DNA of 64,000 nucleotides from Cristatella mucedo (taxonomy: Eukaryota > Bryozoa > Phylactolaemata > Cristatellidae). This document shows positions 14,501-50,423 of the stretch, piece by piece. The notes beneath the pieces were generated by a model. The model ran no database searches. It worked only from the letters and a program-made list of their open reading frames with translations, and was not told where the DNA came from. Both the position numbers and the translations under genes were made by a program. Each line of letters starts with the position of its first letter. The first letter of the stretch is position 1. Where the stretch lies: the NCBI GenBank assembly GCA_009760855.2, contig WPIO01000008.1:7372501-7436500 (forward strand). Direction: 5' to 3'.

Positions 14501-14802
14501 TCACCAAGCTTTTGGAAGCAGAGCAAAGCGAGCAGGTACGAAACAAAACGAGGGTGGCGGCGACTCGGTGGCTTTCAGGTGGTACGGCATCGGCCGGCTC
14601 CACCAAGCAAGCATGCGTAAGCCATTAAGACCCGTGAGGTCGCCACAGAGGGGCTCATGGAGAGGCGTGGCCGATTCTCGGGCAGCAACGATGAAAATCC
14701 CAGTACGACTGGTGGGGCAGCGAGGCATCAGGTCCATGACGGGCGAGTCAGAAAGCCTCGCAGGCAGCGAAAGAGTGAACCGCATCTCTTTGCCGGCCAG
14801 CG
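14501..14802 (-). CDS. ARM-FN3 gene, exon 11 (C-terminal tail, stop)
   Basis: The acceptor is CGTTCGTTGCAG on the - strand, entered in phase 1, which matches exon 10. It encodes LAGKEMRFTLSLPARLSD, a Pro/Ser/Leu-rich segment and TESPPPSF, and stops at 14501 (TGG TGA). A donor-like GTGAGG overlaps the stop, so splicing onward is possible. No domain is recognised. The exon is supported by phase, acceptor and composition only. Confidence 0.5.

Positions 14803-50423: not shown

Follow-up and report, generated by a model that had tools for sequence, protein, structure and literature searches.

A predicted gene with armadillo repeats and three fibronectin type III domains in the bryozoan Cristatella mucedo

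The window analyzed here is a 64,000-nucleotide stretch of the Cristatella mucedo genome (assembly GCA_009760855.2, contig WPIO01000008.1, positions 7,372,501 to 7,436,500) and contains no N. On its minus strand lies a predicted gene, which we assembled manually, guided by open frames, splice sites and phase. Ten exons between 50423 and 25489 appear to form one frame of 622 whole codons, encoding an array of armadillo (ARM) repeats and, after it, three fibronectin type III (FN3) domains. With three provisional exons added, the frame runs from an ATG at 50423–50421 to a TGA at 14503–14501 with no phase conflict and no internal stop; each intron up to exon 10 begins with GT and ends with AG. An in-frame TAG, noted by eye, is located at 50435–50433, 10 to 12 bases above the ATG. 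A preliminary description had proposed that the exons join without phase conflict from a start codon with an upstream in-frame stop to a stop codon, and this holds; its count of 11 exons does not, as 13 are needed to reach the stop at 14501. The full 13-exon model comprises 971 residues; were exon 12 to begin at 16258, the total would be 1001. Rfam, searched at gathering thresholds, gave no match within the 64-kb window.

The predicted ARM array occupies the first five exons. Exon 1 (50224–50423; donor GTGAGC, phase 2) contains the start codon, ARM repeat 1 and the start of repeat 2 (residues 1–67). The rest of repeat 2 and most of repeat 3 are encoded by exon 2 (36361–36562; acceptor TTGCAG, donor GTAACC). 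Exon 3 (34899–35115), entered in phase 0 and left in phase 1, supplies the end of repeat 3, repeat 4 and the start of repeat 5, and exon 4 (31784–32075; donor GTGAGT) the rest of repeat 5, repeat 6 and the start of repeat 7. Exon 5 (30526–30713) is the fusion exon, consisting of the end of the ARM array and the first nine residues of FN3-1. Most of FN3-1 and the first half of FN3-2 follow in exon 6 (29014–29367), which alone scores 47.0 bits with the Pfam fn3 profile. Exon 7 (28498–28577; donor GTATGT, phase 0 out), which alone has no Pfam match, continues FN3-2 up to strand F, and the end of this domain lies in exon 8, a 67-base mini-exon found by enumeration (28352–28418; donor GTAAGT). FN3-3 up to strand F is encoded by exon 9 (27959–28155; donor GTGAGT; fn3 24.0 bits alone, just below the cut-off of 25), and its end by exon 10 (25489–25558), which is in phase. 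Exon 10 was missed by the codon-score exon scan and by a first strand-G motif scan, and was recovered by a second one. Measured with a generic matrix, splice scores were poor for the exon 3 acceptor (−1.8), the exon 4 acceptor (−1.0) and the exon 6 donor (−0.2). The intron phases from exon 1 to exon 10 are, in order, 2, 0, 1, 2, 1, 1, 0, 1 and 0. On our assignment of the repeats, eight of the nine junctions between these exons cut within a repeat or domain, and the remaining one, between exons 8 and 9, falls between FN3-2 and FN3-3.

The three tail exons are provisional: all are in phase, but Pfam gave no match to them and their codon signal is weak. Exon 11 (22385–22587) encodes an Ala/Pro-rich stretch with a basic run, PKRKK, a possible candidate for a nuclear localization signal. 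Exon 12 (15625–16168, or from 16258) continues the tail, and exon 13 (14501–14802) ends it with the stop codon. As modeled, the tail is long and partly basic, and it is probably disordered. Two more open stretches, one from 19146 and one at 17160–17048, are possible exons, neither with a Pfam match. No AATAAA or ATTAAA occurs from 14500 to 12500; beyond this stretch, such a motif is first met at 12172.

The window contains other features as well. Exons of an astacin-type metalloprotease lie on the plus strand at 4616–5281 (HELGHVLGLDHEHQHPDR, YDPLSIMHYG), with Astacin matches at 9.2e-4 (under the cut-off) and 9.8e-5 (at the cut-off). An ShK-like domain on the same strand at 9220–9570 (2.2e-4, over the cut-off) may form the end of this astacin gene, which runs toward the ARM–FN3 gene. 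Repeated fragments resembling the end of a LINE-like reverse transcriptase were observed at 46932–47759 (minus strand), 3167–3949 (minus), 59366–60082 (plus) and elsewhere; the one fragment scanned matched RVT_1 at only 0.069. Upstream of the gene, from 54000 to 64000, the CpG observed/expected ratio is 0.9 to 1.3 over about 10 kb, compared with 0.5 to 0.9 below 50000.

The armadillo assignment draws on profile searches, whose support is modest, and on repeat periodicity. In the protein encoded by exons 1–9, the Pfam HEAT profile narrowly exceeded its cut-off (E-value 4.2e-5; 23.9 bits against 23.5), and the Arm profile just missed its own (4.9e-4; 20.5 bits against 20.6). When the first five exons were scanned singly, only exon 2 gave Arm or HEAT matches below E 0.05 (Arm 0.0055, 17.2 bits and below the cut-off; HEAT 0.01); exon 4 matched HEAT_EZ at 0.32, and exons 1, 3 and 5 had only unrelated weak matches. 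A scan of residues 1–361 with a designed armadillo consensus revealed six ungapped peaks, starting at residues 5, 51, 101, 146, 236 and 281, the last two within exon 4. The ARM chain score was 116, compared with 10.3 ± 7.2 and at most 45 when the same residues were shuffled 500 times; the FN3 part scored 6 versus 6.4 in 300 shuffles. Two more repeats, at residues 189–231 and 322–362, were assigned by eye and have alignment scores of 14.5 and 3.5. The resulting pattern is that of armadillo/HEAT proteins, in which three-helix units of about 42 residues recur in tandem, and the N-terminal array is predicted to contain seven to eight of them. Searched against PDB sequences with phmmer, the ARM half was closest to designed armadillo OR329 (5.7e-5), beta-catenin (0.0045) and importin-alpha (0.14). 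AlphaFold, run on exon 4 alone as a single sequence, returned a mean pLDDT of 50.0.

The arrays of beta-catenin, plakoglobin and importin-alpha belong to the same repeat superfamily. PMC6838082 describes the asparagine ladder, a conserved third-helix Asn in successive repeats that holds the peptide. At the ladder position, repeats 2–8 of the predicted array have T, T, R, R, C, T and K in our register, with no Asn in seven repeats; in the automatic alignment there is one in seven, at repeat 5, where that alignment is broken by gaps and shows N instead of R. Unlike beta-catenin, plakoglobin and importin-alpha, the array lacks the ladder on our register, and three FN3 domains follow it. Without the ladder on this register, the ARM half is unlikely to bind extended peptides in the manner of importin-alpha or beta-catenin.

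In the product of exons 1–9, the Pfam fn3 profile matched three stretches (80.1 bits, 1.4e-22, cut-off 25), bearing out the three domains proposed earlier. Exons 5–10 joined gave 93.7 bits; the two constructs differ in length, so the gap between these scores is no clean gauge of exon 10. An NCBIfam exoglucanase match to residues 433–608 (43.9 bits against a cut-off of 1950) was set aside as generic FN3 similarity. For exon 6 alone, single-sequence AlphaFold gave a mean pLDDT of 47.0. In both FN3-2 and FN3-3, strand F is interrupted at a matching position (after AYDVA and EYTFV, respectively) by an intron in phase 0, and this shared site suggests that one of the two domains is a copy of the other.

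We next consider whether the ARM and FN3 parts belong to one gene. Exon 5 carries the last ARM helix as well as KPSPPTVK, and it is in this exon, at residue 358, that the first of the Pfam fn3 matches begins. Taken alone, nine FN3 residues would prove little. Joining exon 5 to exon 6, however, lifts the fn3 score from 61.9 to 67.3 bits (+5.4), whereas seven decoy upstream ends, drawn at random from 279 same-strand candidates, reached only 62.2 to 62.9 bits (+0.3 to +1.0). The earlier view that exon 5 itself carries both the ARM end and the start of FN3 is thereby upheld. The alternative of two genes arranged head to tail would have an ARM-only gene ending near exon 5, followed by a secreted FN3 protein. 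Its best case is an in-frame ATG ahead of exon 6, near 29392, where a short hydrophobic run (MVYLYVLAACSARSLEV) resembles a signal peptide. Starting there, however, yields an fn3 score of 62.5 bits, no better than the decoys and below the 67.3 bits of the exon 5 join, and FN3-1 would lose its first strand; this start codon was disfavored accordingly. Intron 5 does hold a stop when exon 5 is read through, but neither AATAAA nor ATTAAA occurs in it. Base composition can be read both ways: the CpG observed/expected ratio exceeds that of most of the window both in intron 5 (0.83) and in the 500 bases leading up to exon 6 (0.91), but the latter stretch is AT-rich (37.5% GC). The surroundings of exon 1 are CpG-rich, with 59.4% GC and a ratio of 1.35 at 50000–51000. 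Two separate genes are, in our assessment, very improbable.

A milder alternative is a single gene with alternative ends, in which some transcripts would stop early, for example in intron 5 or 9, and give an ARM-only or shorter protein, while others encode the full fusion. The in-frame stop after the exon 5 donor makes a short ARM-only form possible through read-through into intron 5; an AATAAA at 26568 within intron 9 and the weakly supported far tail exons point the same way. Against this, intron 5 is devoid of AATAAA and ATTAAA, as noted, and the analysis gave no positive sign of such transcripts. We consider alternative ends rather unlikely. A one-gene architecture of ARM repeats and three FN3 domains is very probably correct as judged from the sequence. 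For the fusion put forward in the preliminary description, then, the joins as far as FN3-3, the decoy test, the CpG-rich start and the absence of AATAAA and ATTAAA from intron 5 all speak in favor, but the part beyond exon 10 is only provisional.

Where the protein might reside was addressed with a hydropathy scan of the model including the provisional tail. The 19-residue maximum was 1.34, and the value near the N-terminus 0.22, with no hydrophobic N-terminus or strong transmembrane segment, in line with the previously noted absence of a signal peptide. The combination typical of FN3 cell-surface receptors, a signal peptide with a transmembrane helix, is consequently missing from a model whose tail exons are provisional. 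An extracellular or membrane-bound protein would call for an unmodeled exon providing a signal peptide, and its FN3 domains would then act in adhesion like those of receptor phosphatases. Indeed, among the best 60 of 99 PDB sequence matches, the FN3 part is most similar to receptor phosphatases, contactins and fibronectin, there is one N-glycosylation sequon in FN3-1 (residue 402), and the provisional tail may hide a missed signal or membrane segment. The receptor matches, however, may partly mirror the stock of FN3 proteins in PDB; moreover, the in-frame stop lies just above the ATG, and an RGD motif is absent. No named family is known to have ARM arrays outside the cell. An extracellular or membrane-bound location seems very improbable.

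The closest FN3 matches within that same PDB set (best 60 of 99) are receptor-type tyrosine phosphatases F, S and delta, led by PTPRF at 9.1e-17. Unlike in these receptors, neither a phosphatase nor an immunoglobulin match is seen in the model, and its N-terminus does not resemble a signal peptide; the likeness is one of generic FN3 features.

The order of the parts, with ARM first, then three FN3 domains and a tail containing PKRKK, together with the lack of an N-terminal hydrophobic segment, is what suggests an intracellular adaptor. The protein would stay in the cytosol or nucleus, where the ARM superhelix could bind one partner and the three FN3 domains could extend as an arm bearing a second binding site, while the tail might add short motifs, including the possible nuclear localization signal. 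The adaptor role remains tentative, falling somewhat short of an even chance. As for the account as a whole, that is, one gene of about 970 residues with ARM repeats, three FN3 domains and a tail, acting as an intracellular adaptor, we regard it as evenly poised between right and wrong.

FANK1 and ANKFN1 lack a signal peptide, and the number and order of their FN3 domains differ from those found here. Both likewise join FN3 to a helical repeat array, in their case of ankyrin repeats, and provide works-like models for an intracellular FN3 adaptor (for FANK1, PMC5936064). In contrast, the array in the present gene is armadillo, with no ankyrin among eight Pfam matches at E up to 1. FANK1 and ANKFN1 are therefore parallels rather than relatives.

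Phase 1 introns border the FN3 cassette (exons 6 to 10). According to PMC8001218, exon shuffling makes use of class 1-1 modules, chiefly in extracellular proteins, and FN3 modules have spread mainly through such proteins, with titin-like muscle proteins as intracellular exceptions among users of class 1-1 modules. Given the flanking phase 1 introns, it is plausible that exon shuffling joined the cassette to an older ARM gene. The FN3 domains of titin, twitchin and myomesin offer a close comparison: as described in PMC8001218, they are class 1-1, have phase 1 introns on either side and are also intracellular. Unlike those proteins, the model has only three FN3 domains and no immunoglobulin match, and an ARM array stands ahead of them.

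We also searched the C. mucedo genome (572 Mb in 688 contigs) with exons 1–9. Scoring of the best candidates yielded 53 matches with E no higher than 10, and nine of these belong to the gene itself. Among the remaining 44, 43 fall in the FN3 part and one covers residues 304–372 at E 1.4; accordingly, there is no significant second copy of the ARM half among the scored candidates. A dense minus-strand FN3-like array at G000:C653:8431919-8644156, either a very long FN3 gene or a cluster, accounts for 33 of the 53 matches.

The assembly also includes a mitochondrial contig of 21,008 bases, on which cox1 reads well, by eye, only if AGR is taken to encode Ser and ATA to encode Met. Its frames nad1, nad6 (by eye), cob, nad4L, nad4 and nad5 follow each other on one strand, a block typical of molluscs and related spiralians, and cox3, atp6, cox1 and nad3 lie elsewhere. 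Nine of ten frames matched at 1e-5, nad6 being the one that did not; nad1 was scanned in part. The contig contains repeats at L014:1631-2965 and L014:3746-5230, about 2.1 kb apart, and on the opposite strand at L013:2537-3366; one repeat copy carries a partial nad3-like frame. COX1 fragments, most of them with stops, occur on long contigs (G000:C166:4375626-4376390, C83:2826-3735, C549:2641741-2642010 and C299:634220-634540) and are likely nuclear copies of mitochondrial DNA.

Finally, we asked whether the combination of ARM repeats and FN3 has been seen before. No match spanning both halves was found in Pfam, NCBIfam or PDB sequences (for PDB, among the best 60 of 99), and in a scan of prokaryote genomes none of 21 pattern matches was confirmed. 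Literature searches with direct phrases and strict word combinations for ARM with FN3 returned no description of such a protein, nor did broader searches judged by titles and the starts of abstracts. These negatives amount to an absence of evidence, and the same domain combination could well exist in the proteomes of other invertebrates, whether or not it has been annotated there. That the gene represents an undescribed invertebrate family, in which a ladder-less armadillo array acquired a three-FN3 cassette through exon shuffling to become a new kind of intracellular adaptor, is a speculative idea that we consider doubtful at present.

Both ARM and FN3 are ordinary domains, which limits the surprise. 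A clean ARM–FN3 fusion, if true, would nonetheless be unusual, in that class 1-1 exon shuffling would have built an intracellular adaptor. Should the gene have no orthologues, it would represent a recent domain fusion that can be dated; should orthologues occur across invertebrates, it would point to a conserved scaffold family that has gone unstudied.
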